A DNA stretch of 64,000 nucleotides, taken from NCBI RefSeq assembly GCF_003332305.1, contig NZ_QOIO01000002.1:62001-126000 (forward strand), written 5' to 3'. This stretch comes from Microvirga aerophila. Lineage in GTDB: Bacteria > Pseudomonadota > Alphaproteobacteria > Rhizobiales > Beijerinckiaceae. Below, one piece after another: positions 44,470-64,000 of the stretch. Made by a program: the position numbers and the translations under genes. Below the pieces are notes generated by a model. It searched no databases and was not told the origin of the DNA. It saw only the letters and a list, made by a program, of their open reading frames with translations. Within the stretch, counting starts at the first letter, position 1. The number at the start of each line of letters is the position of its first letter.

Positions 44470-44530
44470 TTCGGAAACTCCTTGCCGCTAGAGTGATACG
44501 CTTAGCTGTGGATGGTGCGGTCCAGCGCTG

Positions 44531-46045: not shown

Positions 46046-46072
46046 GGCCTGTCTCCCGCAATCGGTTGGAGT

Positions 46073-46552: not shown

Positions 46553-46566
46553 TGCGTCGTCCCTTA

Positions 46567-46596
46567 CCTGCGCCGCACCGGGTAATCCGGCGCAGG
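46567..46596 (-). promoter_or_regulatory. Intercistronic hairpin between tctC and tctB
   Basis: CCTGCGCCG (46567-46575) and CGGCGCAGG (46588-46596) form a perfect 9-bp stem with a 12-base loop, without a T-run. Same position and style as the dctP/dctQ hairpin; it probably allows more binding protein than permease. Confidence 0.5.
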
Positions 46597-46628
46597 CAGA
46601 GCTGCGCCGGTCATCGGCTTATTGGATC

Positions 46629-47624: not shown

Positions 47625-47681
47625 TCTCTTCCTCCCTTGATGATTAATACGGGCCGATGGCGTCGGCATGAGCTTGGGTCG

Positions 47682-48755: not shown

Positions 48756-48813
48756 AGCAACCTCTTCTAAGATGACGTAAGGACACTAACAGGCCCATTC
48801 CGTGTACGCAAGT

Positions 48814-48829
48814 ATTCTGCATACAGAAT
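48814..48829. promoter_or_regulatory. Inverted repeat ATTCTG-CATA-CAGAAT
   Basis: Perfect 6-bp arms with a 4-base centre, 59 bases before the divergent pdxA start. Likely an operator for the local GntR/FCD regulator at 48910. Confidence 0.55.
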
Positions 48830-48847
48830 TTTGTTTGCACGTGCGTA

Positions 48848-48867
48848 GCATCCGATATAATGGATGC
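48848..48867. promoter_or_regulatory. Inverted repeat GCATCC-N8-GGATGC over a -10 element
   Basis: Perfect 6-bp arms (48848-48853 and 48862-48867) enclose TATAAT at 48856-48861, a plausible -10 box for the gntR gene at 48910. A weak -35 (TTTGCA) lies upstream. The repeat overlapping the -10 suggests autorepression. Confidence 0.5.
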
Positions 48868-48909
48868 ATGGTGCAACCGCAGGCGTTATGACAGGCGGAT
48901 ATTCCAAAG

Positions 48910-49611
48910 ATGGATCGACCAATGGCAACCGAGGCTTCGCACTCCTTGCTCGAAGATTTCGAAGGGCGTGGACCCATTGCCCGACAGAGCCTGCACGAGG
49001 CCATCGTGGCGCGGGTGCGCGACATGATCATCGAGGGCGAACTAGCTCCGGGCACCCGGATTCATGAGGGAAACCTGGGCGGCAAGCTCGGCGTGTCGCG
49101 CACGCCTCTGAGAGAGGCGCTCAAGTTTCTTGCGAGCGAGGGGCTTGTCGAGTTGTCGCCAGGCCGGGGTGCCGTGGTTCGGCAGTTCAGCGCCAAGGAT
49201 GTCTATGACAGCCTGGTGGTCCTTGGGGCTCTTGAGGGGCTCGCGGGTCGTCTCGCCTGTGAACAGGCCACAGATAAGGACATTCGCGAAGTCAGGCGTC
49301 TGCATGATCATATGATGGAGATGTATGCGAGCCGCGACCGACTGCCCTATTTCAAGCTAAATCAAAATATCCACTCGGCCATACTCCGGCTCACGAAGAA
49401 CGAGGCCCTGGCCTACGTCCACGGAACTTTGCAGGCCCGTCTGCGGCGGATCCGGTATATCGGCAACGAGGGCCCCGAAAAATGGGCTGCGGCCGTCGCC
49501 GATCACGAGGAAATCATCAGCGCGCTTGAGGCGCGAGACGCGGAGCGCCTGTCCAAAGTCCTGACGGTTCATATGGAGAGAACCTGGGAGCGCGTCAGGA
49601 ACTCTATCTAA
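48910..49611 (+). CDS. GntR-family regulator (FCD subfamily) of the tetronate cluster
   Basis: 233 residues. The winged HTH (about 25-90) reads GELAPGTRIHEGNLGGKLGVSR with TPLREALKFLASEGLV. The FCD domain (about 95-225) includes FKLNQNIHSAILR and DHEEIISALEARDAERL, with probable metal/ligand His residues. Two starts are possible: 48910 (used) and 48922. Divergent from pdxA2/tct and first of the otn run, so it probably controls both. The effector is likely a tetronate or its phosphate (inference). Confidence 0.87.
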   Translation: MDRPMATEASHSLLEDFEGRGPIARQSLHEAIVARVRDMIIEGELAPGTRIHEGNLGGKLGVSRTPLREALKFLASEGLVELSPGRGAVVRQFSAKDVYDSLVVLGALEGLAGRLACEQATDKDIREVRRLHDHMMEMYASRDRLPYFKLNQNIHSAILRLTKNEALAYVHGTLQARLRRIRYIGNEGPEKWAAAVADHEEIISALEARDAERLSKVLTVHMERTWERVRNSI

Positions 49612-49691
49612 ATACCGAGAACGCCTCGCGCCGCCGGCTCAACGCCGGTGACGCAAGGCACCCCAGCCACACTTCGCCAAGGGCCGCCAAC

Positions 49692-50411
49692 GTGAGCCAT
49701 GAGAGCCAACTCCGCGAAACCATCTGCCGCTTCGGCCGCTCCCTGTTCGAGCGCGGTCTGACCGCAGGATCATCCGGCAATATCTCGGTTCGGCTGGGGG
49801 ATGGAAACTGGCTCGCAACTCCGACGAATAGTTCTCTCGGATTTCTCGACCCTGCCCAGTTGAGCAAGCTTGATCCCGACGGCCGCCTGCTGTCTGGGGA
49901 CCAACCGACGAAAGAGCTACCCCTCCACTCCGCCCTTTATGCAACCCGCAAGGATGCAGGGGCCATCGTCCACCTGCACTCCACCCATTCGGTCGCGGTT
50001 TCCATGCTGCCGGATGTGAACCCAGCCGATGTACTCCCGCCGATGACCGCCTATTATGTCATGCGTGTCGGGCGAACTGCCCTGGTTCCCTATTACCGTC
50101 CGGGAGATCCTGCGGTCGTGGACGCGATCCATGGCCTCGCAGGACGCTATACCTCCGTGCTCCTCGCCAACCACGGTCCCGTCGTCGCCGGCAAGGATTT
50201 GGAAGCGGCTGTCTACGCAACTGAAGAATTGGAGGAGACAGCCAAACTCCGTCTTCTTTTGCATGGACTGAATCCGCGCCTGTTAAGCCGGGCCCAGGTG
50301 AGAGATCTTGTCGATCATTTCGGCCTGGATGAAGCGATTGGCGCCGAAGCGCCCGAGACCGCTCATGAGTCCTGTTCGCTTCCCCATCAACACTCCCACA
50401 AATGCGGATGA
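49692..50411 (+). CDS. otnC: 3-oxo-tetronate 4-phosphate decarboxylase (class II aldolase family)
   Basis: A 239-residue class II aldolase/adducin-type metalloenzyme. Zn-binding histidines are in VHLHSTHSVAVSM and in LANHGPVV; the Gly-rich loop is GLTAGSSGNISVRL. The C-terminus is a His/Cys-rich tail (ESCSLPHQHSHKCG) that could bind extra metal. OtnC decarboxylates 3-oxo-tetronate 4-phosphate to dihydroxyacetone phosphate and CO2. It lies 80 bases after gntR and 4 bases before otnI. Confidence 0.83.
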   Translation: MSHESQLRETICRFGRSLFERGLTAGSSGNISVRLGDGNWLATPTNSSLGFLDPAQLSKLDPDGRLLSGDQPTKELPLHSALYATRKDAGAIVHLHSTHSVAVSMLPDVNPADVLPPMTAYYVMRVGRTALVPYYRPGDPAVVDAIHGLAGRYTSVLLANHGPVVAGKDLEAAVYATEELEETAKLRLLLHGLNPRLLSRAQVRDLVDHFGLDEAIGAEAPETAHESCSLPHQHSHKCG

Positions 50412-50415
50412 ACCG

Positions 50416-51228
50416 ATGCCCCGCTTCTCTGCCAATCTGGGCTTTCTCTTCACGGAAAGACCCGAAACCGATCGAATTACCGCCGCCGCGGCGGCTGGCT
50501 TCCGGGCTGTCGAGATGCACTGGCCTTACCAGGTGCCAGCCTCCGACATGCGCGATGCCCTCACCAAGGCTCAGGTGACGATGCTTGGCTTGAATACGGC
50601 CGTCGGCAACGCCGCAGCAGGCGATTTCGGCCTAGGAGCTTTGCCGGGCCGGGAGAGCGAGTTCGAGCAGACAGTCGATCAGGCGCTCTCATACGGAGCA
50701 GCAATCGGCGCGACAGCCGTCCATTGCATGGCAGGCGTCGTGAGCGCCGAGGATTTCGCTGCTGCCGAGCGCACGTTCGTGTCGAATCTGAAAGAAGCCG
50801 CCGACAAGGCCGCGCAAGCTTCGATAATGGTTCTCCTCGAGCCGATCAATCATCGCGACAAGCCGAACTACTTCCTCAGCCGCATCGAACAGGCAGCCTC
50901 GATCATTGACCAAGTCGGTCGGACGAACGTGAAGATTATGTTCGACTGCTACCACACGCAGATCACGCAGGGCGATTTGACGACTCGACTCAAGACATAC
51001 CTGGACATCATCGGGCACGTGCAGATTGCAGCAGTACCGAGCCGTGCCGAACCGGATGAAGGCGAGGTCAACTACCGCGATATCTGCAGCGTTCTCGACC
51101 GCCTTGGGTACCAGGGCTGGATAGGAGCCGAGTACAAGCCCCGTGGGCGAACTGAGGACGGGCTCGGCTGGCTCCGGGCCTTATCCGGCAACACCACGCC
51201 ATCCAGCTCGAGAGAGATCACAGCATGA
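50416..51228 (+). CDS. otnI: 2-oxo-tetronate isomerase (hydroxypyruvate isomerase family)
   Basis: A 270-residue TIM-barrel isomerase. RFSANLGFLFTERP opens the barrel; metal-ligand Glu lies in VLLEPINHRD, others in MFDCYHTQ and IGAEYKPRG. OtnI interconverts 2-oxo- and 3-oxo-tetronate. The frame is open to 50308, but homology begins at the ATG at 50416. It overlaps otnK by 4 bases. The RBS is weak, suggesting coupling to otnC. Confidence 0.84.
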   Translation: MPRFSANLGFLFTERPETDRITAAAAAGFRAVEMHWPYQVPASDMRDALTKAQVTMLGLNTAVGNAAAGDFGLGALPGRESEFEQTVDQALSYGAAIGATAVHCMAGVVSAEDFAAAERTFVSNLKEAADKAAQASIMVLLEPINHRDKPNYFLSRIEQAASIIDQVGRTNVKIMFDCYHTQITQGDLTTRLKTYLDIIGHVQIAAVPSRAEPDEGEVNYRDICSVLDRLGYQGWIGAEYKPRGRTEDGLGWLRALSGNTTPSSSREITA

Positions 51229-52487
51229 AACTCGGATGCATCGCAGACGATCTGACGGGCGCAACGGATCTGGCGCTTATGCTCGCCCGAGAAGGGCTCA
51301 AGACGGTTCAAACCATCGGCGTGCCGGATGCGAGCCTCGATCTATCGGGCGCCGACGCTGTCGTCGTGGCGCTCAAGTCGCGAACGATCCCCGCGCAGGA
51401 AGCCGTCGAGCAATCCTTGGCCGCAGCAAACTCCTTGCGCGCGGCAGGCGCCCAGCATCTCTTCTTCAAGTACTGCTCCACCTTCGACTCTACCGACGAG
51501 GGCAATATCGGCCCCGTCGCGGAGGCGCTTCTCTCCTTTACAAACAGTGACTTCACTCTTGCCTGCCCGGCTTTTCCGGCGAACGGGCGCACGGTGTACA
51601 AGGGTCATCTGTTCGTGAATGGGGTGCCGCTAAGCGAGAGCAGCATGAAGGATCACCCTCTGACACCCATGCGCGATTCAAACCTCGTTCGCGTGCTTCA
51701 ACGGCAGACAGGATGTTCCGTGGGCCTCGTCGCCTTCGAGGATGTCGAGGGCGGCCCCGATGCCATCCGCAAGGCCTTCGACAGGGAGAAGGCAGCCGGC
51801 CATCAGATCGTGATCGTTGATGCGATAACGGATAGTCACCTGCGCGCCATTGGACTTGCAGCGGCAGAACTTCCGCTCATTACCGGTGGGTCGGGAGTCG
51901 CTATGGGTTTGCCCGCAGCCTATCGAGGAGACCATGCCTCGGTCGCTTCACCTTCTGGTGTTTTCGACGCGCCCGCGGGACGCGAGGCGATTTTGGCTGG
52001 CTCGTGCTCGAGCGCCACGAGGCGGCAGGTAGAGATCGCCATCGAGAGAGGCGTTCCGGCGTTCCGCATCGACCCCATGGACCTCGCGTCCGGAAAGCTC
52101 ACATCGCAAGCCGTGCTCGCATGGATCGGAGCACAGGAGACAGGCGGCCCTGTCCTTGTCTATTCGACGGCAACGCCCGACGAGGTGCAGGACGTTCAGG
52201 GCAAACTTGGTCGCATGAACGCAGGGGAAATGGTCGAGAGGGTGTTGGCGGAGATCGCGCGCGCCCTACCGGCCCTGGGCTTCACACGCCTCCTGGTCGC
52301 CGGCGGCGAGACATCAGGAGCGGTGGTCGGCGCTCTTGGCGTCGATGCCCTCACCATTGGGCCGGAGATCGACCCTGGAGTTCCATGGACCAGAACCCTC
52401 GCCGGGACAGATCTCGCCCTCGCCCTCAAGTCAGGTAATTTCGGCGCCCCGGACTTCTTTCTGAAGGCCTGGAACATGCTGCGATAG
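51225..52487 (+). CDS. otnK: 3-oxo-tetronate kinase (DUF1537 family)
   Basis: A 420-residue four-carbon acid-sugar kinase. The N-terminal domain has CIADDLTGATDLALML and the OtnK-like FKYCSTFDSTDEGNIGP, CPAFPANGRTVYKGHLF and HPLTPMRDSNLVRVL segments. The C-terminal nucleotide domain includes LVAGGETSGAVV and LKSGNFG. It phosphorylates 3-oxo-tetronate at C4. Related kinases act on D-threonate (DtnK) and on apionate-derived acids. Start overlaps otnI; 80 bases separate it from the next gene. Confidence 0.87.
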   Translation: MKLGCIADDLTGATDLALMLAREGLKTVQTIGVPDASLDLSGADAVVVALKSRTIPAQEAVEQSLAAANSLRAAGAQHLFFKYCSTFDSTDEGNIGPVAEALLSFTNSDFTLACPAFPANGRTVYKGHLFVNGVPLSESSMKDHPLTPMRDSNLVRVLQRQTGCSVGLVAFEDVEGGPDAIRKAFDREKAAGHQIVIVDAITDSHLRAIGLAAAELPLITGGSGVAMGLPAAYRGDHASVASPSGVFDAPAGREAILAGSCSSATRRQVEIAIERGVPAFRIDPMDLASGKLTSQAVLAWIGAQETGGPVLVYSTATPDEVQDVQGKLGRMNAGEMVERVLAEIARALPALGFTRLLVAGGETSGAVVGALGVDALTIGPEIDPGVPWTRTLAGTDLALALKSGNFGAPDFFLKAWNMLR

Positions 52488-52567
52488 CCTGCACTCAAGA
52501 TACTAGATTGCCGGATCAATTATAATCAAACCGATGACCCCAATCGCATCGGGCGGAGGAGTTCGCG

Positions 52568-53956
52568 ATGAATTACCATACCTACTATGCAAAAGCGGAC
52601 CGCCCTGTTGAAACCTGCGTGGTGGGTACAGGCGGCTTTGGTCAGAGCTTTCTTGCCCAAGCCCGACGCGTTCCTCTGATGAACGCACGAATCGCAGTCG
52701 ACATTACCTCCGAAGCCGCTGCATCCGGATTGAGGGCTGCGGGGATCGACCCTCGAGAAATCCGAATTTGCGATTCTGCTCAAGATGCCAAAGCCGCCTG
52801 GGATCGAGGCGACCACATCGCCGTCAGCGATCTTGCCACGGTGGCTGACCTTCCCGTCGACGTCATCGTCGAAGCTACGGGGCGGCCCCTGGCGGCTGCG
52901 CGCCATGCGCTCATCGCTGTTGAAGCGGGGAAGCATCTCGCGCTCGTCACCAAGGAACTCGACAGTGTCGTTGGACCAGGCCTCAAGCATCTCGCGGCGG
53001 AGCATGATCTGGTCGTCACCACGGTCGACGGCGATCAACCGAGCTTGCTCATCGGCCTTGCAACCTGGGCCGAAGTGATGGGCTTTAGCGTGATCGCGGC
53101 GGGCAAATCCAGCGAGTATGATTTCGTCTACGATCCTTCGTCGCGGCGTCTGACCAGCAATGAGCGGCTGGCGGAGGGAGTGGATCTTGAAAGCCACTGG
53201 AGCTTGGGCGAGCGCGACGTCCGAGAAATTCTCGCAGCACGAGACGCCGCAATTGCAGGTTTTCCGCAAAGAGCTGTGCCGGATCTATGCGAGCTCATGG
53301 TCGTCGCCAATGCTACCGGCCTTCAGCCCGACCGTATGGACCTCCACGCCCCCCTCGCCCGCATCAATGAGGTGCCGACGATTTTCTCCCATCGAGATGG
53401 CGGCGGCATCCTTTCAGGCGAGCGTCGTCTCGACGTGTTCCACTGCCTTCGCAAACCCGACGAGATCAGCTTTGCAGGTGGCGTCTTCGTAGCCATCCGG
53501 TGTGAGAATGCGGCGAGCTGGGAGATGCTGGCCCAGAAGGGGCATATCGTCAGCCGCACGGGCGAGACAGCGATGGTCTTCCTGCCGCGGCACCTCCTCG
53601 GGCTCGAAGCTGCAACCAGCATTCTGGATGCTGCGATCCACAATGTGTCCGGCTACGGGTCCGACTACCGACCCCGCTATGACCTGATTGCCGTCGCAAC
53701 CGAAGACTTGCCGGCCGGTACAGTTCTATCCATGGGTGGTCACCATCATACGATCTCCGGCTTGACCGCCGAGTTTAGACCCGCTGGCTCTTTGTCGGAC
53801 AATGCACCTGCACCATTCTATCTTGCGGCTGATTGTCGGTTTGCAGCGCCAGTCCGCAAGGGACAGGAAGTCCGCATGAAGGATCTTGACCTTCCGGGCA
53901 CCTCGGCTCTGCTCACCTTACGCCGCAAGCAGGATGCACGGTTCTTCGGACAATAG
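52568..53956 (+). CDS. NAD(P)-dependent oxidoreductase with C-terminal SAF domain
   Basis: 462 residues, of the family listed as homoserine dehydrogenase-like (COG4091 type). The Rossmann motif CVVGTGGFGQSFLA lies at about 18-32; the middle has IVEATGRPLAAARHALIAVE and LVTKELDSVVGP. From about 370 there is a SAF-like domain: LIAVATEDLPAGTVLSMGGHHH, SLSDNAPAPFYLA, and GQEVRMKDLDLPG. SAF domains occur in sugar-acid dehydratases and antifreeze-like proteins, so an acid-sugar substrate is likely. It is not part of the described Otn pathway as I know it; it may feed another acid sugar in. Confidence 0.75.
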   Translation: MNYHTYYAKADRPVETCVVGTGGFGQSFLAQARRVPLMNARIAVDITSEAAASGLRAAGIDPREIRICDSAQDAKAAWDRGDHIAVSDLATVADLPVDVIVEATGRPLAAARHALIAVEAGKHLALVTKELDSVVGPGLKHLAAEHDLVVTTVDGDQPSLLIGLATWAEVMGFSVIAAGKSSEYDFVYDPSSRRLTSNERLAEGVDLESHWSLGERDVREILAARDAAIAGFPQRAVPDLCELMVVANATGLQPDRMDLHAPLARINEVPTIFSHRDGGGILSGERRLDVFHCLRKPDEISFAGGVFVAIRCENAASWEMLAQKGHIVSRTGETAMVFLPRHLLGLEAATSILDAAIHNVSGYGSDYRPRYDLIAVATEDLPAGTVLSMGGHHHTISGLTAEFRPAGSLSDNAPAPFYLAADCRFAAPVRKGQEVRMKDLDLPGTSALLTLRRKQDARFFGQ

Positions 53957-53987
53957 GTCGGCAATCATCAGCCGGAGCAAATGACCG

Positions 53988-54971
53988 ATGACCCTCCTGT
54001 CGCATTTGCGGCCCGATCGCTTCACCCTGGCTCTGCTGGCAAGCGCGATCGGAGCTACCCTCATGCCTGCAACCGGAGCCGCCGCACCGGTCCTCAAGAT
54101 CGTTATTGCCGGTTCAATCGCGCTTCTGTTCTTCCTACAAGGTGCTCGCCTGCCGCGGGAGGCAATTGTCGGCGGCATCGTCCACTGGCGACTGCATCTG
54201 ACCGTCTTTGCAGCCACGTTCATTCTGTTCCCGCTCCTCGGCCTCCTGCTGAGCAAGAGCCTCCAGCCGATTTTGGCGCCGGGGATAGCTTTAGGCATAC
54301 TCTACCTCTGCCTTCTGCCATCGACTATTCAATCCTCCATCACCTTCACGTCGATCGCCCATGGCAACGTGGCTGCCGCCGTGTGCAGCGCGTCCGCATC
54401 GAACGTGCTGGGTGTATTCCTTACGCCGCTCCTCATGAGCTTTCTCATGAATACGCAAGGCGGCGTGCCATTGAGCGCCATCGGCTCCGTGGTCATGCAA
54501 CTCCTCGTCCCGTTCATCGTGGGACACTTGGCGCGACCCTGGATCGGCCAATGGGTCGAACGACACCGGACCGTGACCGGGATCGTTGATCGGGGGGCTA
54601 TTCTGCTGGTGGTATACTATGCTTTCGGCGAAGCAGTTCTGAATGGCCTGTGGCACCAATTGTCAGCGCGTGATCTCGCCGTTCTCATCGTCCTCAACTG
54701 CGTTCTCCTCGCCACGGTTCTTTTCGTCGTGACAGGTGCAAGCCGTCTGTTCGGATTCTCCCGTCCGGACGAGATTGCCATTGTGTTCTGTGGATCCAAG
54801 AAAAGTCTTGGCAGCGGGGTTCCGATCGCAAGCATCTTGTTCCCGGCCGCGATGATCGGCGTGGTCATCCTGCCGCTCATGCTTTTCCATCAAATCCAGC
54901 TCGTGGTCTGCGCGGTTCTGGCCCGTGCTTATGCAAGTCGCGCCGAAGCGGCATCTGCGCGCCGGAGCTGA
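53988..54971 (+). CDS. SLC10-type (bile acid:sodium symporter family) carrier, YfeH/SLC10A7-like
   Basis: A 327-residue membrane protein with about ten hydrophobic helices. SLC10A7-like features are FLQGARLPREAIVGG, LPSTIQSSITFTSIAHGN and FCGSKKSLGSGVPIA. It begins 31 bases after the SAF oxidoreductase and closes the otn run. It could bring in an acid, or export one, beside the Tct system; the substrate is unknown. Convergent with the next operon. Confidence 0.83.
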   Translation: MTLLSHLRPDRFTLALLASAIGATLMPATGAAAPVLKIVIAGSIALLFFLQGARLPREAIVGGIVHWRLHLTVFAATFILFPLLGLLLSKSLQPILAPGIALGILYLCLLPSTIQSSITFTSIAHGNVAAAVCSASASNVLGVFLTPLLMSFLMNTQGGVPLSAIGSVVMQLLVPFIVGHLARPWIGQWVERHRTVTGIVDRGAILLVVYYAFGEAVLNGLWHQLSARDLAVLIVLNCVLLATVLFVVTGASRLFGFSRPDEIAIVFCGSKKSLGSGVPIASILFPAAMIGVVILPLMLFHQIQLVVCAVLARAYASRAEAASARRS

Positions 54972-55024
54972 AGCGTCTTCCAGAGACACGACCGCAAGCC
55001 GGTCCTGTGGCCCGATCGAGCGCT

Positions 55025-56182
55025 TTACAGGACAGCGCCATAAAGGCCAGCAACCTCTTCCGAGTTCATATCGCGGGGATTGTTGGCGAGAAGTCTTTGA
55101 ATGCCGACCGTGACCTCGCGGGCCATCTCGGGAATATCTGCCTCGGTGACGCCGAGTTGGCTCAATCGCGTCTCCAATCCGACCGACGCCACCAGTTGTT
55201 CAAGCTCGGACACGAAGGCCTCGGCGGCGGCAGAGGCATCAACGAAGCGATGCCCTGGCAGCAGATGGGTGGCGAGCTCCGCATACTCCTTTTCGGCGAC
55301 CGGCATGTTGAACCGCATCACCGGTCCCATGACCAGAGCGTTGCTGTGACCATGCGGGATGTGGAATCGGGTACCCAAGGGGTAGGACAAGGCATGGACA
55401 GCCGCAACCGACGCATTGACGAAGGCCATCCCGGCCAACATCGAGCCCTGGAGCATAGCAGAGCGAGCCTCGATATCGGTCCCATCGGCCACAACTTTAC
55501 GGATGTTTCCTCCCAGCAAGTCCAGCGCCTTCACGGCGAGCGTATCGGAAACCACGTTCTTGCGTGTGCGGCTCGTGTAGGCCTCGATGGCATGCACCAT
55601 GGCGTCTAGCGCGGAAGCAGCGGTCACATGTGCCGGCATGCCCAGCGTCAGTTCCGCATCCAGGAGTGCGACATCGGGCAAAAGCTGGGAGGAGTAAATC
55701 GCTTTCTTCTCATTGGCCTCGCTGGTCACCACCGATGTCCAGGTCACCTCAGACCCTGTGCCCGCAGTGGTCGGCACCTGGATCAATGGCAACCGTTGAC
55801 CCCGCGCCAGATCGGTGCCGTACATTTCTTCGATGGGCTGTTCGGAATGAATAAGCAGCGCCACCAGCTTCGCCGTATCCAGTGAGCTTCCTCCACCCAA
55901 CCCGACGATGCCGTTCGCCCCGAAGTTGCGGGCTGCCTCCACGGCTGCGCGCACGACCCTCACAGGCGGATCCGCCTGCACCTGGTCAAACACCGTTGCG
56001 GTCATGCCAGCCGCGGTCAAAGCAGCAACTGCACGTCCCGCAAATCCGCAGGCGGCGATACCGGCATCGCAGATTACGATCGCCCGGCTGACACCCAGCC
56101 CAGCCATCAGAGTACCAATTCGCTTTAACCCTCCAATCTCACAGATCACGCGTGGCGGGCTATGAAACGTGAAGTTTGTCAT
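55025..56182 (-). CDS. Iron-containing (type III) alcohol dehydrogenase
   Basis: A 385-residue Fe-ADH. The NAD(P) motif GLGGGSSLDTAKLVA is at about 95. Metal-ligand residues are seen as the Asp and His of SALDAMVHAIEAY, AVHALSYPLG and HIPHGHSNAL. The substrate is unknown: family members act on maleylacetate, lactaldehyde or simple alcohols. Last gene of the long minus-strand operon, 144 bases after the GMC gene, so it may be a separate unit. Confidence 0.9.
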   Translation of the reverse strand: MTNFTFHSPPRVICEIGGLKRIGTLMAGLGVSRAIVICDAGIAACGFAGRAVAALTAAGMTATVFDQVQADPPVRVVRAAVEAARNFGANGIVGLGGGSSLDTAKLVALLIHSEQPIEEMYGTDLARGQRLPLIQVPTTAGTGSEVTWTSVVTSEANEKKAIYSSQLLPDVALLDAELTLGMPAHVTAASALDAMVHAIEAYTSRTRKNVVSDTLAVKALDLLGGNIRKVVADGTDIEARSAMLQGSMLAGMAFVNASVAAVHALSYPLGTRFHIPHGHSNALVMGPVMRFNMPVAEKEYAELATHLLPGHRFVDASAAAEAFVSELEQLVASVGLETRLSQLGVTEADIPEMAREVTVGIQRLLANNPRDMNSEEVAGLYGAVL

Positions 56183-56326
56183 TCAAGTTCTCCCTGTCTG
56201 TTATTCTGATCGGCGCGGCTGTTCAGTGGAGGAGTGGATTGAGCGGCTGCCCTTCAGGCCTCATCCTGGGTAATGACCTTGCTTTATCTCGAAGGACGGC
56301 TCGATGGGCTTCAGATGTGATTCCTA

Positions 56327-57931
56327 TCAAGCGCTTTGGCGAGCATCGGCTTTGATGAGGTCAGCTCCTTTCTCGGCAATCATCAAGACAGCGGCCTGAG
56401 TGTTGGCCGAGACCATGGTGGGCATGATGGACGCATCCACAACACGAAGTCCTTCAAGCCCATAAACCTTCAGGCGCTCATCCACGACCGCTTGCGGGCC
56501 CTTGCCCATGCTGCAGGTGCCGATCGCGTGATAGATGGTCTGGCCGTTGCGCCGAGCGAAATCGAGCCATTCATCATCGGTGCTCACCTCCGGCCCCGGA
56601 TTCATCTCATAGGCTCGGTACCGATCCATCGCCGGCTGCTCGACAATGTTCCGGGCAATCTTCATGCCGCCAATCAGGGATTCCTGATCGGCTCTGACCG
56701 AAAGGAAATTCGGCCGGATCGCTGGGGGGACAGTAGGGTCCGGCGACTTGATATGGATCGAGCCTCGGGACTCCGGGCGCAGCTGCGTGACGCCAATGGT
56801 CATTCCAGGCTCCCGGTCGAGCTTGCGCTCACCGGCATTCGCGTAGCTCGCATGCATGAAGAAGTACTGCACGTCCGGCGTTTCGAGCTCCGGCCTCGTC
56901 TTGACGAAGCCATGAGCTAGGCCGGTGCCAAATGTCAAAATGCCCTTACGGGTCAAAAAGTACTGAGCGACAGCTGCGCCAAGTCGCCATCCCCTCGTCA
57001 TCTCGTTGAGGGTAACAGGGAGCTTGACGCGCCAGTTCATCCGCGTTGCGAAATGATCGATGTAATTATTGCCTACGCCGGGAAGCGCGTGGGTCACGGG
57101 AATTCCGACAGACCCGAGTGTGTTCGGGTCCCCGACCCCCGACAATTCGAGCAGGTGCGGCGTCTGAATGGATCCCGCTGTCAGGATCACCTCGGCTCGC
57201 GCCCTAACCTTTTTCTCTTCACTCCCAACTCGATAGGTCACGCCGACAGCCCGACGTCCCTCGAAATCAATGCGCATGACATGAGCATGGGTCCGCACCT
57301 CGAGGTTCGGTCGCGACATGGCAGGGCGGAGATAGGCATCTGCGGCGCTCCAGCGGCGTCCCTTCCGCTGATTGACCTGATAATAACCAAAGCCTTCCTG
57401 ATCGACCCCATTGTAGTCGGGGTTCTTCGGATAACCGGCTTCCTGCGCCGCCTCGATGAACGCTTCCGAGATCTCCGGGCGTTCGGACACGCGAACCACA
57501 TTGAGAGGTCCGCTTCCTCCTCGCATTTCGCTCTCGCCGTCTTCGAAGCTCTCCAATTTCTTGAAGTACGGCAGGACGTCCTGGAAGCTCCAGCTTGTCG
57601 CTCCACGCTGTGCCCAGGTATCATAATCCTGGGGTTGGCCGCGGACGAAGATCATGCCGTTGATCAGCGTTGATCCGCCGAGCCCTTTCCCACGCGGCAC
57701 CACAATGGTGCGGTTATGGACATTTTCCTCGGGCTCGGTTTGGAATCGCCAATTATACTTGGCGTTCGTGAGAAGTTTGCTGAAGCCGGCCGGGATCGGG
57801 ATCCAAAACCCGCTGTCAGCACCACCGGCTTCAAGCACCAGAACCTTGTACTTTGAGGATTCCGTCAGACGGTTTGCCAGCACGCATCCAGCCGTCCCGC
57901 CTCCAACGATGATATAATCAAAGTATTCCAT
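56327..57931 (-). CDS. GMC-family FAD alcohol oxidoreductase
   Basis: A 534-residue choline-dehydrogenase-like flavoenzyme. FAD motif DYIIVGGGTAGCVLANRL opens the chain, GKGLGGSTLINGM is at about 80, and the active-site His lies in YHAIGTCSMG with the Asn in SANTQAAVLM. It oxidises a primary alcohol to the aldehyde, passing electrons to quinone or O2. It lies 46 bases after the GlcD-type gene. The substrate is unknown; its neighbours suggest a hydroxylated or oxidised acid. Confidence 0.9.
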   Translation of the reverse strand: MEYFDYIIVGGGTAGCVLANRLTESSKYKVLVLEAGGADSGFWIPIPAGFSKLLTNAKYNWRFQTEPEENVHNRTIVVPRGKGLGGSTLINGMIFVRGQPQDYDTWAQRGATSWSFQDVLPYFKKLESFEDGESEMRGGSGPLNVVRVSERPEISEAFIEAAQEAGYPKNPDYNGVDQEGFGYYQVNQRKGRRWSAADAYLRPAMSRPNLEVRTHAHVMRIDFEGRRAVGVTYRVGSEEKKVRARAEVILTAGSIQTPHLLELSGVGDPNTLGSVGIPVTHALPGVGNNYIDHFATRMNWRVKLPVTLNEMTRGWRLGAAVAQYFLTRKGILTFGTGLAHGFVKTRPELETPDVQYFFMHASYANAGERKLDREPGMTIGVTQLRPESRGSIHIKSPDPTVPPAIRPNFLSVRADQESLIGGMKIARNIVEQPAMDRYRAYEMNPGPEVSTDDEWLDFARRNGQTIYHAIGTCSMGKGPQAVVDERLKVYGLEGLRVVDASIMPTMVSANTQAAVLMIAEKGADLIKADARQSA

Positions 57932-57977
57932 GACAATAATCTTTCAGGAACTCAGCCTCATGATGCCGATGCGATAG

Positions 57978-59366
57978 TCAGGGCGAGAGCACCTTGCCTG
58001 GATTGAGAAGTCCTTGCGGATCGAGAGCAAGCTTGAGCTTTCGGGCAAGCTCCATTTCCACCGAGGAGCGATACCTTACCAGCTCACCGACACGATACTG
58101 CCCGATCCCATGTTCCGCCGAGATGCTGCCGCCATGGGACGCAACAACGTCGTGCACGATACGATTGACGGCGCCAGCATCGTGACCGTCCTCGATCAGA
58201 ACGTTGTAGTGAATGTTCCCGTCACCCAAGTGTCCGAAGGCGTTCACCCGGGTTCCGGGCACTTCATCAGCGAGGGCTTTGCCAACATCGACCAGGAACA
58301 GTGGAACGGCTGTGAGCGGCACGGAGACGTCATGCTTGACGCTTTTGCCCTCTCTCGCTTCGGATTCCGTCACGTGCTCGCGCAGGGCCCACAACTGCGC
58401 CGCCTGTGCGCCGGATTCGGCAATGACTCCGTCAAGGGCGATCTCACGCTCAAAAGCGGAGCCGAGCATCGCCTCGGCAGCCTCGCGCAGCCCAGCCAGA
58501 CTGGACGCCGCCTCGATGAGCACAAACCACTCGCCCTCGGCGATCGGAGGCTTCAGGCCAGCATGTCTCGCGACGAGATCGAGTGATGTCCGGGAAATCA
58601 GCTCAAAGGCGGTTATTTGATCGCCCAAATCATCCTGGGCGAGCCCGAAAAGCGTCAAAGCCGCGTCTGGGTCAGGCACTGACAGCAGGGCAGTGACGGA
58701 GTGCTTGGGCCTTGGAAGCAGTCTCAGGACCGCCGCCGTTACAACTCCAAGCGTACCCTCGCTACCGATGAAGAGTTGCTTCCAGTCGTAGCCAGCATTG
58801 TCCTTGCGCAACCTGCGCAAGCCGTTGGCGATCGTGCCATCGGGTAGCACAACCTCAAGGCCAAGGACGAGATTGCGGGTCATTCCGTAGCGCAGCACAT
58901 TCACGCCGCCGGCATTGGCCGCAACAACGCCTCCGATCGTAGCCGACCCCTCGGCCGCCAGGCTGATGGGAAGCAGGCGGCCTGCCGTGGAGGCGGCATC
59001 CTGCGCAACTTTCAGAATGCAGCCTGCCTCGGCTTCGATTGTCATACCGATAGGATCGACATTCCGGATCGCCGCCATGCGGTTGAGCGATAAAACGACC
59101 TGGGTGCCTGATGCATCCGGAACGGCGCCGCCCGCCAATCCGGTATTTCCGCCTTGTGGTACGATCGGAACTCCGGCCTCGCGACAGATCCGCACGACTT
59201 GTGCAACTTGCTCCGTCGAATTCGGGCGGACCACGCAGGCAGGCTTGCCGGGAAAGAGCTTGCGCCAATCAACCGCATACGATTCCAGATCACGCCAATC
59301 GGTGATTACGCCGGCGGGGCCGAGATAGCTTTGCAGGCGATCGGCAAGATCGGACGACGTGCTCAT
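57978..59366 (-). CDS. FAD-linked oxidase, GlcD/D-lactate dehydrogenase type
   Basis: A 462-residue VAO-type flavoprotein. FAD_binding_4 domain (about 35-175) includes VVRPNSTEQVAQVV and VPQGGNTGLAGGAVP. The C-terminal FAD-oxidase_C domain (about 215-460) has the metal-ligand segment FGHLGDGNIHYNV and SAEHGIGQYRVG. It oxidises a D-2-hydroxyacid (glycolate, D-lactate or D-2-hydroxyglutarate) to the 2-oxoacid. Its start overlaps the fused E1 gene by 4 bases, so the two are translationally coupled: the 2-oxoacid formed could be the E1 substrate. Confidence 0.9.
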   Translation of the reverse strand: MSTSSDLADRLQSYLGPAGVITDWRDLESYAVDWRKLFPGKPACVVRPNSTEQVAQVVRICREAGVPIVPQGGNTGLAGGAVPDASGTQVVLSLNRMAAIRNVDPIGMTIEAEAGCILKVAQDAASTAGRLLPISLAAEGSATIGGVVAANAGGVNVLRYGMTRNLVLGLEVVLPDGTIANGLRRLRKDNAGYDWKQLFIGSEGTLGVVTAAVLRLLPRPKHSVTALLSVPDPDAALTLFGLAQDDLGDQITAFELISRTSLDLVARHAGLKPPIAEGEWFVLIEAASSLAGLREAAEAMLGSAFEREIALDGVIAESGAQAAQLWALREHVTESEAREGKSVKHDVSVPLTAVPLFLVDVGKALADEVPGTRVNAFGHLGDGNIHYNVLIEDGHDAGAVNRIVHDVVASHGGSISAEHGIGQYRVGELVRYRSSVEMELARKLKLALDPQGLLNPGKVLSP

Positions 59367-61570
59367 CTGAAAGCCTCGTTGAGACGCGCTCCATCGACGG
59401 GAGTCCCTTTGGCCGCCATGGCAAGAGCAAGACCTTGGGCGACTTCCCGGCTTCCGGCGAAAGCCGCTCGCTCAAGAACCTTGGAAATGGTGGGAGAAGC
59501 CTCCCGACCATGCACGCGCTGAACCGGCTGATCGAGCCAATCCAGGTAGCGCCGTTGGATTTCGTCCGCGAGCATCGCCCCGTAGGACGTGCCGACGGAT
59601 CCTTGCTCGGCGATGACAACGTTGTTTGTCCGACGAATGCTGTTACCGATCGTTTCCCAGTCGATGGAGGTGCGGTCGAGAGTCCGCAAATCGATGACTT
59701 CGGCATCGACCCCAAGTCTCTCCACGGCTTCAAGGGAGCGCGTCACCATGGCCGAATAGGTGAGTACGGTCAGGTCTCGTCCGGAACGGGCAACGCGAGC
59801 TTTCCCCAGCGGGACGACATAATCGAGATCATCGGCCGGCAGAGCGCCCATCGTCTGATAGAGGTCGACATGCTCGATTACCAGAATAGGATCGCGGCAC
59901 TGCAAGGCTGCGTTCATGAGGCCCACATAATCATGAGGCGTGGATGGTGCGATGATGCGCCAGCCAGGTGAACTGGCGAACATGCCCGCAGGATCGAGCG
60001 AGTGCTGTGAGCCGTAACCCGTACCCATGGCGATCTTGGTGCGTAGAACCAACGGCACGTTGGTGTCGCCGCCGAACATATGGCGGGCCTTGCCGATCTG
60101 GTTGAAGACCTGGTCTGCCGCCACCCACATGAAGTCCGGATACATGAATTCAATGATCGGCCGGTAGCGGCCATCCATGGCCATTCCGCCGGCCAACCCA
60201 GTAAAGGCGGCCTCGCTGATCGGGGTTCCCAGTACACGTCCGGGAAAAGCGTCGGCAAGGCCTCGGGTTGCTCCGTTGGTGCCGCCTTTCAGCCGGTGAA
60301 TATCCTCTCCCATGACCACAAGGGAGGGATCGGTCTCGAAACGTCGGTGCAGAACGTCGGCAATCGCGTCCACGAACTTCCGCTCTTTGGTGGGTCCGTA
60401 ATACGCATCGCTCTCCACGATCCTCACGGTGTTCCAATCCGGCAGATCGCCCCTGATACCTACGTCGACAAAGGCAGCGTCGGGCCACATGTCAGGCCGG
60501 ATGCGCCGCGAATTTCCATGAGCTTCGACAAGGCGTTCCGCCAAACGCGTCATGACCGTCTTACACCGGTCGCGGAGGTCGGACACATCAGCATCGCTGA
60601 CAAGATTGCGCCTGACCATCTCGTCAGCCGTGCGCTTGAGCGGGTCACGGGCGCGCCAGGCGACCTCCTCCTCCTTGCTGCGATAACCGAAAGCAGAGCC
60701 AGGCAGGGGGCCGTTCTGGTGGAAGAAACGATAAACCTCAGCCTCGATCAGCGCAGGACCCTTGCCTTCTCGCAGGAGCGCCAGGGCCTCCTGGGTTGCA
60801 AGATGGACCGCCAGCGGATCCATGCCGTCGACGCGCCATGACGGGATGCCGAACCCGCAACCCCGCCCGGAGAGACGGGCCTCACGCGTAACTTCCTCGA
60901 CCCTGGTTGCAACGGCGTACAGGTTATTCTCGACGAAAAACAACATCGGCAGAGACCAAGCCGCCGCAAGATTCATCGTTTCAAGGGCCGCGCCAATATT
61001 GACGGCGCCGTCCCCGAAATACGTTATGGCGACGTCGCCTGTTTCGGCCATCTTGTGGGCCATGGCCGCGCCCGCCGCGAGCGGCACGCCGCCTCCCACG
61101 ATTGCATTGGTGCCGAGCGCCCCAGCCTCGGCCCAGCGCAAATGCATGGAGCCGCCTCGGCCGTGCCCGAAGCCTGGCTCAAGGCCGAGGATTTCGGCCA
61201 GGGTCTGGTGAAGCACCTGCTCGACCTCGGGTGAGATGTCCGCCTTCGGATCCAGGTGCGGCGCTACATAAGCCAGAGCCTTCGCCAAGAATTGATGGTG
61301 ACCACGGTGTGAGCCGTTGACCTGATCGCTCGCGCGTAGGCCGACAATGGACGCGACAGCGCCGCCTTCCTGTCCGATGGAGGAATGGGCGGGGCCATGT
61401 ACGAGTCCTTCCCCTGCCAGGTCGAGAACCGTCTCCTCAAAAGCCCGGATGAGATGCATCTGCGTGAGCATTTCGCCGAGCAGAGCCGGATCCGCCTTGT
61501 CCCAATCCTCACGGGTGGTGCGCAGTTCAATCCAGGGCGCTGCGGTTTCTAGCCTCGTCCGTTCCGGCAT
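59363..61570 (-). CDS. Fused E1 alpha/beta 2-oxoacid dehydrogenase (TPP-dependent)
   Basis: A 735-residue protein: E1-alpha domain (about 25-330) fused to an E1-beta domain (about 390-725). The TPP motif is YFGDGAVNIGAA through to ENNLYAVA in the alpha part; NGSHRGHHQFLA and HGRGGSMHL are also alpha. Beta segments are VVMGEDIHR, FTGLAGGMAMDG and VIDLRTLDR. No E2 or E3 gene and no lipoyl domain lies in the window. The frame starts at 61735, but AGGAGAACCTCC precedes this ATG. Acetoin or branched oxoacid systems share this fold. It may act non-canonically or recruit housekeeping E2/E3. Confidence 0.88.
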   Translation of the reverse strand: MPERTRLETAAPWIELRTTREDWDKADPALLGEMLTQMHLIRAFEETVLDLAGEGLVHGPAHSSIGQEGGAVASIVGLRASDQVNGSHRGHHQFLAKALAYVAPHLDPKADISPEVEQVLHQTLAEILGLEPGFGHGRGGSMHLRWAEAGALGTNAIVGGGVPLAAGAAMAHKMAETGDVAITYFGDGAVNIGAALETMNLAAAWSLPMLFFVENNLYAVATRVEEVTREARLSGRGCGFGIPSWRVDGMDPLAVHLATQEALALLREGKGPALIEAEVYRFFHQNGPLPGSAFGYRSKEEEVAWRARDPLKRTADEMVRRNLVSDADVSDLRDRCKTVMTRLAERLVEAHGNSRRIRPDMWPDAAFVDVGIRGDLPDWNTVRIVESDAYYGPTKERKFVDAIADVLHRRFETDPSLVVMGEDIHRLKGGTNGATRGLADAFPGRVLGTPISEAAFTGLAGGMAMDGRYRPIIEFMYPDFMWVAADQVFNQIGKARHMFGGDTNVPLVLRTKIAMGTGYGSQHSLDPAGMFASSPGWRIIAPSTPHDYVGLMNAALQCRDPILVIEHVDLYQTMGALPADDLDYVVPLGKARVARSGRDLTVLTYSAMVTRSLEAVERLGVDAEVIDLRTLDRTSIDWETIGNSIRRTNNVVIAEQGSVGTSYGAMLADEIQRRYLDWLDQPVQRVHGREASPTISKVLERAAFAGSREVAQGLALAMAAKGTPVDGARLNEAFR

Positions 61571-61580
61571 GGAGGTTCTC

Positions 61581-62339
61581 CTAAACGTACCCGTATGCGG
61601 TCCAGCCGCCGTCGATTCCGATGATCTGTCCCGTGATGGGACCCGAAGCATCTGAGGCCAGGAAAGCCGCGACCTCGGCCACTTCCCGCGTTTCGATAAG
61701 ACGTCCAATAGGTGTGCGCTTCTCAAGAGCCGCAATATCCAGCCGCCCGCGCGCCTGAAGGTCGTCTACAAACGGGGTGCGGACATAACCTGGCGCAATT
61801 GCGTTCACGCGAATTCCATATTGCGCCCATTCGACGGCAAGCGCCTTGGTCATCGCCGACACGCCGCTCTTTGAAACCACATAGCCCAGTCTCTCGGGCG
61901 CCGCGACAACGCCGTAAATTGAGGAGGTCAGGATGATGTGTCCTTGCCCTCGCGGAATCATTCGCCGGCCCGCCTCCTGAGCCGTCAAGAAGACACCGTC
62001 GAGGTTTACGCCCATGACTCGCCGCCAGCCCTCGAAATCGAGATCCAGCGTTGGGCAGTTTTGCGAAACTCCGGCGTTCGCGAACACCACATCCACAGGA
62101 CCGAACGTTTCCTCGGCCACATCGAAGGCTTGCTTCACATCAGAGGGTTCAGTGACGCTACCCGAGGCGACTGCCACGTTCTCCATATTTCGGGCAGCCT
62201 CTGGGTTCTGGTCCAAGACGATGACCCGAGCACCACGGGAGGCGAACATCCGGGTGATCTCAAGGCCGATCCCCGATGCCCCGCCCGTGATAAGGGCGCA
62301 TCGTCCCTCAAGGCTGCTCAAGGGCCGCTCCAGTGTCAC
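61581..62339 (-). CDS. Short-chain dehydrogenase/reductase
   Basis: A 252-residue classical SDR: LITGGASGIGLEITRM; NAGVSQN; catalytic Ser in LTSSIYGV; Tyr-x3-Lys in YVVSKSGVSA; C-terminal DGGWTAYGYV. The GTG start overlaps the stop of the AroE-like gene (GTGA), preceded by GAGG; the longer frame to 62414 lies inside that gene, so I reject it. Ends 10 bases before the fused E1 start. Likely oxidises a hydroxyl of the operon's substrate. Confidence 0.87.
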   Translation of the reverse strand: MTLERPLSSLEGRCALITGGASGIGLEITRMFASRGARVIVLDQNPEAARNMENVAVASGSVTEPSDVKQAFDVAEETFGPVDVVFANAGVSQNCPTLDLDFEGWRRVMGVNLDGVFLTAQEAGRRMIPRGQGHIILTSSIYGVVAAPERLGYVVSKSGVSAMTKALAVEWAQYGIRVNAIAPGYVRTPFVDDLQARGRLDIAALEKRTPIGRLIETREVAEVAAFLASDASGPITGQIIGIDGGWTAYGYV

Positions 62340-63133
62340 GGAATCATCCTCATGAACTTGGCCATCAATTCGAGCTGGCAGGTGAGCATCGGCCGACCGG
62401 GATGTGTCCGGCATCCCCTCTCCTTCGCGGCGGCCAGAAGGGCCGTCGTTTCAGGCTGCATGATGATTTCTGCAACAACCTGACTAGACGAAAGACCATT
62501 CACGTCGAGGGGTAGAGGATCACCTTCCCTCAGCCCTAGAGAGGTCGCGTTGACGACGATTTCATGCCCTGACGGATCGGGTGACCCTATCTCGACCGAA
62601 ACTGCGGGATAGTGCTTCGCGAGCCGCTGCCGCAGGTCCTCGGACTTGCTTCGTGTACGGTTCGCGACGGTGAGGCGCGACACTCCTGCTTGCGCCAAGG
62701 CAAACGCGATCGCGTTGGCGGCTCCTCCGGCGCCCGCCAGGTAGACGCTCCGTTCGCGCGGCTCGACTCCGCCCTGCCGGAGGCCCGCCACGAAGCCTGC
62801 GCCGTCCAGCATTTCGCCCACGAGGCTGCCATCGTCCTCGCGCCTCACTGTATTGACGGCTCCAATGGCCTGGGCTTGCTCGCTGACTTCGTCACAGAGG
62901 TCCACTATGGCGGTTTTGTGCGGAACCGTGACGACAAAACCCTTCAGGTTGTGCATGGACCTCAGACCAGCCACCAGGGAGTCGAGGCCCCCCGATCCCA
63001 CATGAAACGGGATCATGACTCCGTCGACGCCGTGCTCCTCCATCAACGCATTCAAGGCCTGAGGGGTTTTCACGTGATGGATCGGGTCCGCCAGGATACC
63101 CCAGATAGCCGTACGGCCTGTAGTCTCTGCCAT
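62336..63133 (-). CDS. Shikimate dehydrogenase-like (AroE family), altered substrate motif
   Basis: 265 residues. AroE fold: N-terminal substrate domain (1-105) and Rossmann domain with YLAGAGGAANAIAFAL (about 130). Catalytic Lys is present in VTVPHKTA and the Asp in EMLDGAGF; GAVNTV is conserved. But the shikimate-binding SxS motif (Ser-Lys-Ser in E. coli) reads HVKTP, with Val and Thr, and NTDG is MLDG. It is therefore probably not the housekeeping AroE; substrate may be quinate-like or another cyclic or linear polyol acid. It overlaps the SDR by 4 bases. Confidence 0.8.
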   Translation of the reverse strand: MAETTGRTAIWGILADPIHHVKTPQALNALMEEHGVDGVMIPFHVGSGGLDSLVAGLRSMHNLKGFVVTVPHKTAIVDLCDEVSEQAQAIGAVNTVRREDDGSLVGEMLDGAGFVAGLRQGGVEPRERSVYLAGAGGAANAIAFALAQAGVSRLTVANRTRSKSEDLRQRLAKHYPAVSVEIGSPDPSGHEIVVNATSLGLREGDPLPLDVNGLSSSQVVAEIIMQPETTALLAAAKERGCRTHPGRPMLTCQLELMAKFMRMIP

Positions 63134-63137
63134 TACG

Positions 63138-64000
63138 TCACCCGAGCGTGTAGGCGATCTTCACCGCCGTATAGAACTCACGCGCATACGCACCTTGCTC
63201 GCGCGGGCCGTAGGAGGAGCCCTTTCGTCCACCAAACGGCGTATGATAATCGACTCCCGCGGTGGGAAGGTTCACCATCACCATCCCCGCGCTGGAGCGC
63301 TTCTTGAAATCCCCTGCATATTTGAGGGACGTTGTGCAGATGCCCGAGGACAACCCAAACTCCGTGTCATTGGCGACCGCTACGGCCTCTTCGTAGTCAC
63401 GGACACGGATGACTGTCGCAACAGGCCCGAAGATCTCCTCCCGGTTGACCCGCATATCGTTCGTGGTCTCAGTCAGGAGAGCAGGAGTCATGTAGTGGCC
63501 GGGGGTCTCCCGATCGATTGCCTCGCCTCCGATGACGACCTTCGCGCCTTCTTTTCGACCAATTTCCACATAGCTGATATCCTGCTCGAGCTGCGAACGG
63601 CTGACCACGGGGCCGATATCGGTGCCAGGCTTGAGAGCGTTATCTACCTTCAAGCCTGCAACGCGTTCCTTCAGGGCTTCCACAAAGCGATCATGGATTC
63701 CCTCCTGGACAATCAGGCGGGAAGACGCAGTGCACCGTTGCCCCGTCGAGAAAAAGGCGCCATTCACGGCGCACTCGACAGCGATCTTTAGATCCGCGTC
63801 GTCCAGCACCACGAGCGGGTTCTTGCCGCCCATTTCAAGTTGGATCTTGGCGCCGCGCGCCACCAGATCCCCCGCGAGACGACGCCCGACCGGGACCGAC
63901 CCCGTGAAGCTTAAAGCTCGAACGAGAGGCGACTTGACGATGGCGTTGCCGACTTGAGAGCCGGACCCCATCACAAGGTTGAACACTCCCGACGGTACGC
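63138..64000 (-). CDS. Aldehyde dehydrogenase, partial (N-terminus beyond the window)
   Basis: About 287 residues of the C-terminal part; the frame stays open to the window edge, and the GTG at 63986 is internal (PSGVFNLVMG). Catalytic Glu lies in LEMGGKNP and Cys in GQRCTASS. The KGSSYGPREQG end is typical of 2-oxoglutarate-semialdehyde (2,5-dioxovalerate) dehydrogenases used in sugar-acid catabolism. Its stop lies 4 bases before the AroE-like start. It is the first visible gene of the operon. Confidence 0.9.
   Translation of the reverse strand, partial: VPSGVFNLVMGSGSQVGNAIVKSPLVRALSFTGSVPVGRRLAGDLVARGAKIQLEMGGKNPLVVLDDADLKIAVECAVNGAFFSTGQRCTASSRLIVQEGIHDRFVEALKERVAGLKVDNALKPGTDIGPVVSRSQLEQDISYVEIGRKEGAKVVIGGEAIDRETPGHYMTPALLTETTNDMRVNREEIFGPVATVIRVRDYEEAVAVANDTEFGLSSGICTTSLKYAGDFKKRSSAGMVMVNLPTAGVDYHTPFGGRKGSSYGPREQGAYAREFYTAVKIAYTLG

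Follow-up and report, generated by a model that had tools for sequence, protein, structure and literature searches.

The main finding of this study is that the seven minus-strand genes at the right end of the window—the 64,000 nucleotides of Microvirga aerophila DNA analyzed here (contig NZ_QOIO01000002.1, C97:62001-126000 in contig numbering)—form, judging by gene order, the distal end of a unit of 11 genes that includes a branched-chain-type (HAAT) ABC transporter and is accompanied by a divergent arm. These genes encode an aldehyde dehydrogenase (ALDH), an AroE-like dehydrogenase, an SDR dehydrogenase, a fused E1 alpha/beta enzyme of the thiamine diphosphate (ThDP) type, a GlcD-type protein, a GMC flavoprotein and an iron-containing alcohol dehydrogenase (Fe-ADH), which we read together as part of a conserved, probably regulated, uncharacterized catabolic module. 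The best explanation, to which we give a little less than an even chance, is that the module is a GntR(FadR)-controlled regulon for catabolism of a small hydroxylated carboxylate, in which the E1 would cleave a 2-oxo acid or a comparable alpha-keto compound. What is new, as far as the sequence allows us to judge, is that the E1 has been rebuilt and that its own genome provides no E2 linked or dedicated to it. The bacteria that carry the module come from soil, the sea and clinical samples, and we found no assigned substrate in the open-licence literature. The operator, the transporter and the E1 offer direct handles for finding that substrate, and an E1 conserved without a linked E2 makes it testable whether such an enzyme can borrow the pyruvate dehydrogenase (PDH) core or work without lipoyl transfer.

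To the right of the window edge, the minus strand carries the remainder of the ALDH gene, followed by LivF, a fused LivM-LivG, LivH and the gene of a periplasmic binding protein (SBP; L006:79-1347); the Liv gene names were given by eye and the SBP was named by Pfam (Peripla_BP_6). The divergent arm consists of a PIG3-type quinone oxidoreductase (QOR; 480.8 bits against a cut-off of 296.8 for the PIG3-type model), two SDRs (SDR2 and SDR3), a GntR-type regulator that has no NCBIfam match at 1e-40, and a cupin. This bears out the prediction of the initial annotation that the operon runs past the right edge and that its transporter and regulator lie there, the former as four genes on the same strand and the latter in the divergent arm. 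The cupin, directly after the GntR gene (L006:4861-5547), belongs to the D-lyxose isomerase family, with 277 bits to PF07385 and 243.2 bits to the NCBIfam model, whose cut-off is 350.

The module is conserved in many genera. Scanning genome contigs once with the E1 returned 398 relatives; we kept the best 80, and all counts out of 80 refer to these close relatives; linkage was scored with a home-made gene caller, family counts depend on identity cut-offs that we set, and some counts are lowered by contig ends. The core comprises the E1 (80 loci), SDR (71), LivF (70), LivH (68), SDR3 (64), GntR (62) and AroE (51). Linkage is intermediate for a type-A SBP or weakly related protein (50), E2 (43), a VOC protein (40) and E3 (39), and less frequent for SDR2 (28), GMC (25), QOR (20), GlcD (10), ALDH (6) and Fe-ADH (2). 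The seven genes are therefore not a natural unit, as had been assumed: the strand continues through the full ALDH gene and the four-gene transporter, and three of the seven (ALDH, GlcD and Fe-ADH) are seldom linked. Because they are rare among related loci, this ALDH and the Fe-ADH may be local additions in the window lineage; another ALDH, about 35% identical to that of the window, occurs in further loci. The nearest E1 found, from Microvirga calopogonii, is 90% identical and lies in the same gene order as far as its contig reaches, so that the order recurs within Microvirga. An annotated plasmid of Rhodovulum MB263 carries QOR, transporter, SDR, AroE, GMC, ALDH, GntR, two SDRs, E1 and E2, and similar annotated plasmid sets occur in Caballeronia insecticola and Paracoccus albus; in Streptomyces, Shinella, Citricoccus and Paenarthrobacter, the E1 lies among other genes. 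The earlier statement that the operon has no obvious described counterpart thus survives only in part, since the order recurs in many genera, as in the Rhodovulum plasmid, while no characterized example was found in the open-licence literature. The module is accessory and occurs in 3 of 398 phylum-sample and 14 of 149 family-sample genomes, its own genome being counted in both, and the family-sample scan did not find it in the 5 other genus members listed. This patchiness and the missing E2 and E3 are what a decaying or scrambled remnant with no common function would leave, which we nevertheless regard as very improbable, since all seven frames are open, gene order is kept with the 90% identical E1 of M. 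calopogonii, and the operator described below is exact in 20 loci.

The evidence that the module is probably regulated comes from its promoters. Twenty of the fetched loci share the same 16-bp sequence, TTGTCAGGCAACTTGG; 18 of them belong to the E1 group of the window (L007-L018, L020-L023, L028 and L030) and the other two are Roseomonas relatives (L082 and L083). In 19 of the 20, the gene calls put the sequence either upstream of SBP and/or QOR/SDR2 or just within them, L007 being without gene assignment. The M. aerophila genome holds one exact copy, at C97:131395-131410 in the SBP/QOR intergenic region (the divergent promoter); with two mismatches allowed there are six more copies, against two in all for the backwards control. 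This promoter site fits an 11-bp TNGTCNGACNA-like FadR-type operator, in which the putative GntR site is TTGTCAGGCAA, and the core of the 16-mer is close to the FadR-type palindrome. In 65 of 92 loci, a relaxed palindrome lies no more than 350 bp before a gene of the cluster; the reversed pattern does so in 14 and six permutations in 0, 2, 5, 5, 9 and 26, the pattern having been written after seeing the sites, many of the loci being close kin (mostly Achromobacter) and one of the 92 (L092) having no gene calls. Many Achromobacter loci have two such sites 21 bp apart, and relatives of the regulator are annotated as FadR/GntR. We take the conserved palindrome as the likely operator of the linked GntR, for which it is support and not proof.

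A second finding concerns the active site of the E1. The protein scores above the Pfam cut-offs for the E1_dh, transketolase pyrimidine and transketolase C-terminal domains (PF00676, PF02779 and PF02780), and its halves match the E1 alpha and beta models of the mitochondrial/alpha-proteobacterial PDH complex, below the equivalog cut-offs. As in PDH, the ThDP motif (GDG...NN) is kept and, together with E453 and H523, is invariant in the 80 labeled rows of a quick tree of 92 E1s (no bootstrap; 12 of the 92 unlabeled); the QHS motif aligns so that H523 is the counterpart of H128, the catalytic His of the beta subunit in Geobacillus stearothermophilus. Unlike PDH, the window E1 has its alpha and beta parts fused, carries HQN, with H284 and Q285, in place of the catalytic-loop GHS and is encoded in a catabolic operon. 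The loop reads YR-F/Y-FHQNG-P/G-x-PGSAFGY in 80/80 relatives, as against YRYRGHSMSDP..YR in the genome's own PDH and YRVGAHSTSDDP..YR in its branched-chain 2-oxo acid dehydrogenase (BCKDH), and HMMER aligns HQN ungapped to the GHS of human PDH. The position of alpha His271 is Gln in all 80, and the GHS His proposed for lipoyl acetylation is absent. For the G. stearothermophilus E1, the loop His (H271 alpha) has been put forward as an aid to lipoyl acetylation; its replacement by Ala reportedly resembles I206A, with DCPIP (dichlorophenolindophenol) activity raised and complex activity lowered (PMC2663715). In addition, the Tyr of the GYRD/TYRQ motif is replaced by His88 and a pocket Phe by Pro60, both invariant in the same 80 rows; His88 would correspond to Y102 alpha and Pro60 to a substrate pocket position.

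As the initial annotation stated, the E1 has no partners in the operon, with neither E2 nor E3 among its genes. A family search of the genome gave seven E1-alpha-type matches (two of them weak, at 28.2 and 25.6 bits) and three E2s; from sequence and neighbors, we read the E1s by eye as PDH, a second pdhA, BCKDH, SucA and the operon E1, and the E2s as those of PDH, BCKDH and SucB. This search found no dedicated E2 for the operon E1, in the operon or elsewhere in the genome, and the "oxidative decarboxylation" first assigned to the E1 therefore falters, because that reaction needs an E2. Among the relatives, an E2 piece lies near the E1 in 53/80 loci and none in 25/80 although at least 3.3 kb follow, two contigs ending within 71 bases, and the presence of a linked E2 changes at least three times on the E1 tree. 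The linked E2 of Pseudomonas oryzihabitans matches the M. aerophila PDH E2 at 53% (residues 174-420) and 46% (7-190), compared with 35% for SucB and 31% for the BCKDH E2. When the same E2 is compared with 13 other E1-bearing family genomes, its best match is at 50-53% in 12 and absent in G516 (83% complete), and several of the 13 hold further E2s at 30-40%. Because the linked E2 compared is most like the genome's own PDH E2, the simplest reading is that the E1 probably uses the housekeeping PDH E2, the loop change leaving room for an E2-free reaction.

Such a reaction, in which the E1 of the window lineage would act independently of any E2 as a lone ThDP enzyme (lyase, decarboxylase or carboligase) whose product is an aldehyde or acid, seems to us unlikely. 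It would agree with the lack of a dedicated E2, the 25 loci without a linked one, the repeated changes on the tree and the Gln in place of alpha His271, as well as with a genome of the same genus (G458) in which the partner of AroE-GMC is another ThDP enzyme, not of the E1 kind. However, a PDH E2 is available in the genome, and the E1 columns that differ between E2-linked and E2-less enzymes are scattered, with no clear lost E2-binding face. Furthermore, the remodeled loop is in itself not a sign of E2 independence, because it is common to the 53 E2-bearing relatives. We hold it quite unlikely that the branch with the rebuilt site (HQN for GHS, His88 and Pro60) is a free-standing ThDP C-C lyase of Rhizobiales, which, without a lipoyl partner, would open a keto intermediate, possibly alicyclic, made by the SDRs, the AroE-like enzyme and the GMC oxidoreductase. 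GlcD was considered as a replacement for E2 and rejected, as loci in Chelatococcus, Azorhizobium and Bosea show neither GlcD nor E2.

One clue to the substrate is the SBP, which, together with the Liv-type permease and ATPase genes, likens the module to LivJ/LivK and HAAT transporters. In this protein and 11 chosen relatives, S79, Y150 and Y202 of LivJ are kept (12/12), whereas E226, which we take to be the amine-binding Glu of LivJ/LivK, is Ala or Gly, Y18 is Leu and F276 is His in all 12, and T102 is Ile or Val in 10. The LivJ contacts other than E226 come from docking (PMC6983066). Because E226 and Y18 are replaced throughout, an ordinary amino acid is an unlikely ligand, and the pocket rather suggests a carboxylate that lacks an alpha-amino group. 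A relative of the SBP in sister clusters has solved structures (4xfk and 7jfn). GlcD, whose gene overlaps the E1 stop, and a class IV aminotransferase near a Phaeobacter E1 relative are both members of 2-oxo-acid-producing families, and such an acid may be the kind of compound handled here.

Our preferred reading, a pathway for a hydroxylated carboxylate, would proceed as follows. The HAAT-type transporter would import the compound, as its family and pocket suggest, and SDR, SDR3, the AroE-like enzyme and the GMC and GlcD flavoproteins would oxidize or rearrange its hydroxyls to give a 2-oxo acid or comparable alpha-keto compound. The fused E1 with ThDP would then, by the chemistry of its family, attack the carbonyl and break the adjacent C-C bond. 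Most relatives have a linked E2, often with an E3, by which the acyl group would be transferred to CoA; for the window lineage, the most likely recipient of this group from the E1 is the housekeeping PDH E2, given the likeness described above, and ALDH would oxidize an aldehyde product. Several points weigh against this pathway. The usual partners of the E1 are two SDRs and not a 2-hydroxy acid dehydrogenase, which would suit an alpha-hydroxyketone or diketone equally well, GlcD is linked in 10/80 loci only, and in all 80 relatives changes affect the loop that, in PDH, is proposed to serve the lipoyl group. Moreover, when soaked with threonine, a Brucella ovis relative of the other (type-B) SBP, which scores 531 bits against the Caballeronia protein, reportedly did not take it up and contained acetate or nitrate (PMC11376275).

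The strongest competitor, possible but doubtful, is a route resembling that of acetoin dehydrogenase, in which SDRs would turn a vicinal diol into an alpha-hydroxyketone or diketone, the E1 would cleave this into an aldehyde and an acyl group, and ALDH would remove the aldehyde. The SDR, E1, E2 and a nearby succinate-semialdehyde-type ALDH copy the layout of butanediol/acetoin operons—SDR, E1, E2, E3 and ALDH stand together in module relatives—with the SDR linked in 71/80 loci and the one E2 compared being PDH-like. The module differs from these operons in its E1 loop, HAAT transporter, GntR regulator and AroE and GMC partners; the GH carried by the loop of acetoin E1s is absent here, and the GlcD and aminotransferase neighbors better suit a 2-oxo acid. 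Acetoin dehydrogenase is a less probable identity for the E1, and was kept as rival chemistry only, as no such model was among its NCBIfam matches, the content of the library for an E1 model of this kind being unchecked. Search listings for ephedrine-type diketone catabolism and mycosporine breakdown gave nothing usable.

The AroE-like protein, at 173.2 bits, falls short of the cut-off of the AroE equivalog TIGR00507 (200.2). It keeps K65, D102, N86, T61 and Q244 and has lost S14, S16, N59 and Y215, and its NRT..K stretch is as in NADP-type AroE. K65 and D102, the catalytic residues of the shikimate dehydrogenase family, are kept in 56/56 cluster relatives picked at no less than 41% identity. 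At the positions of S14 and S16, the carboxylate serines of AroE, these relatives have Val in 51, Ile in 2, Leu in 1 and a gap in 2, and Thr in 54 and a gap in 2, respectively. The altered substrate motif seen at the outset is thus real, but the unusual substrate argued from it is a weak deduction, since AroE relatives beside quiC/aroQ-type genes (L126, L127 and L128), of the same family and 37-39% identical, lack the same serines and share the change of Y215 to Met. In these loci, quiC was named by a model in L126 only (680.5 bits against a cut-off of 1200), the other quiC/aroQ-type names being given by eye. Because these relatives share the losses at the same positions, a shikimate-like ring substrate may be compatible with the window protein, which differs from them in its partners (GMC, SDR and E1) and in the NRT..K stretch. 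5-Ketofructose reductase (7cok) was rejected as its function, with 122.7 bits against 159.6 for 4k28; one shikimate-dehydrogenase-like protein is reported to reduce 5-ketofructose and another to be inactive on it (PMC7954740). The GMC protein scores 552.4 bits against a cut-off of 732.1 for BetA (TIGR01810) and exceeds that of the subfamily PRK02106 (640.9 against 605). We draw no inference from its match to a chloramphenicol-type GMC (8b7s, 397 bits), as a choline dehydrogenase scores higher (427.5 bits). The NCBIfam models closest to the ALDH are ketoglutarate-semialdehyde dehydrogenases, below cut-off.

Parts of the module also occur beside other enzymes. In Paracoccus albus, an acetolactate-synthase-like ThDP enzyme (L106:23154-24878; PRK06112, 914.3 against 673 bits) lies between the module's SBP and QOR. 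In a genome of the window's genus (L125:5784-14863), AroE (66%) and GMC (78%) stand beside another ThDP enzyme (PRK07586, above its cut-off), a GABA (gamma-aminobutyrate)-type transaminase, an acyl-CoA-dehydrogenase-like protein and an SDR, with no E1 match there. Near an E1-E2 pair of Rhodococcus opacus, where no AroE-like gene was called, a protein has a FolD-type tetrahydrofolate dehydrogenase/cyclohydrolase domain (L089:8608-9357); FolD-type and AroE-like families share a fold. In Ochrobactrum quorumnocens (L134:4464-20634), an E1-E2 relative lies amid two long hydantoinase-subunit-like frames and ALDH, VOC-like and aminotransferase-like frames, named mostly by eye, which, like the Phaeobacter plasmid, may show the same E1 family in a second context, that of amino compounds.

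The gene calls in the window proved sound: the ORF list has all seven minus-strand frames open, NCBIfam and Pfam family searches agree with the first names gene by gene, and, as far as sequence goes, a string of mostly oxidative enzymes is supported. The overlaps reported earlier are also present, GTGA at 62339-62336 and the four bases shared by E1 and GlcD at 59363-59366. For the E1, the ATG at 61570 is the most likely start, 10 bases past the SDR stop and behind a GGAG. The ALDH-AroE and SDR-E1 spacings are 4 and 10 bp, and translational coupling is plausible from ALDH through GlcD and weaker beyond because the GlcD-GMC and GMC-Fe-ADH gaps are 46 and 144 bp. Scans of 54500-64000 for sigma-70 promoters and terminators gave no signal (4 and 5 sites, against shuffle means of 2.3 and 6.8).

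Genes of the predicted operon within the window, 5' to 3' on the minus strand
Feature	Position	Strand	Remarks
Aldehyde dehydrogenase (ALDH), 3' part	63138-64000	-	Cut by window edge; full gene 477 aa, on to L005:16571
AroE-like dehydrogenase (shikimate dehydrogenase family)	62336-63133	-	K65/D102 dyad kept; S14->V, S16->T, N59->V, Y215->M
SDR dehydrogenase	61581-62339	-	GTG start overlaps AroE stop (GTGA); a longer frame could reach 62414
Fused E1 alpha/beta thiamine diphosphate enzyme	59363-61570	-	735 aa; remodeled loop YRFFHQNGPLPGSAFGYR
GlcD-type FAD-linked 2-hydroxy acid dehydrogenase family protein	57978-59366	-	ATG overlaps E1 stop
GMC flavoprotein alcohol dehydrogenase	56327-57931	-	Choline dehydrogenase subfamily model PRK02106 above cut-off
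Iron-containing alcohol dehydrogenase (Fe-ADH)	55025-56182	-	Present in 2/80 related loci

A separate C4 sugar-acid cluster (window 43582-54971) ends tail to tail with the operon. Its NCBIfam matches include a 3-oxo-tetronate kinase (610.3 bits against a cut-off of 350) and a 3-oxo-tetronate 4-phosphate decarboxylase (326.2 against 250) and, below cut-off, a 2-oxo-tetronate isomerase-like protein (318.6 against 325) and a PdxA-like protein; a hydroxyacid dehydrogenase, a TctA/TctC-like transporter (named by eye) and an SBF-like transporter are also encoded. An oxidoreductase with a DRL catalytic domain at 52568-53956 has no NCBIfam match, and a relative at 26-27% adjoins the E1 cluster of many Achromobacter loci, while one at 52% lies near quinate-type genes in L127.

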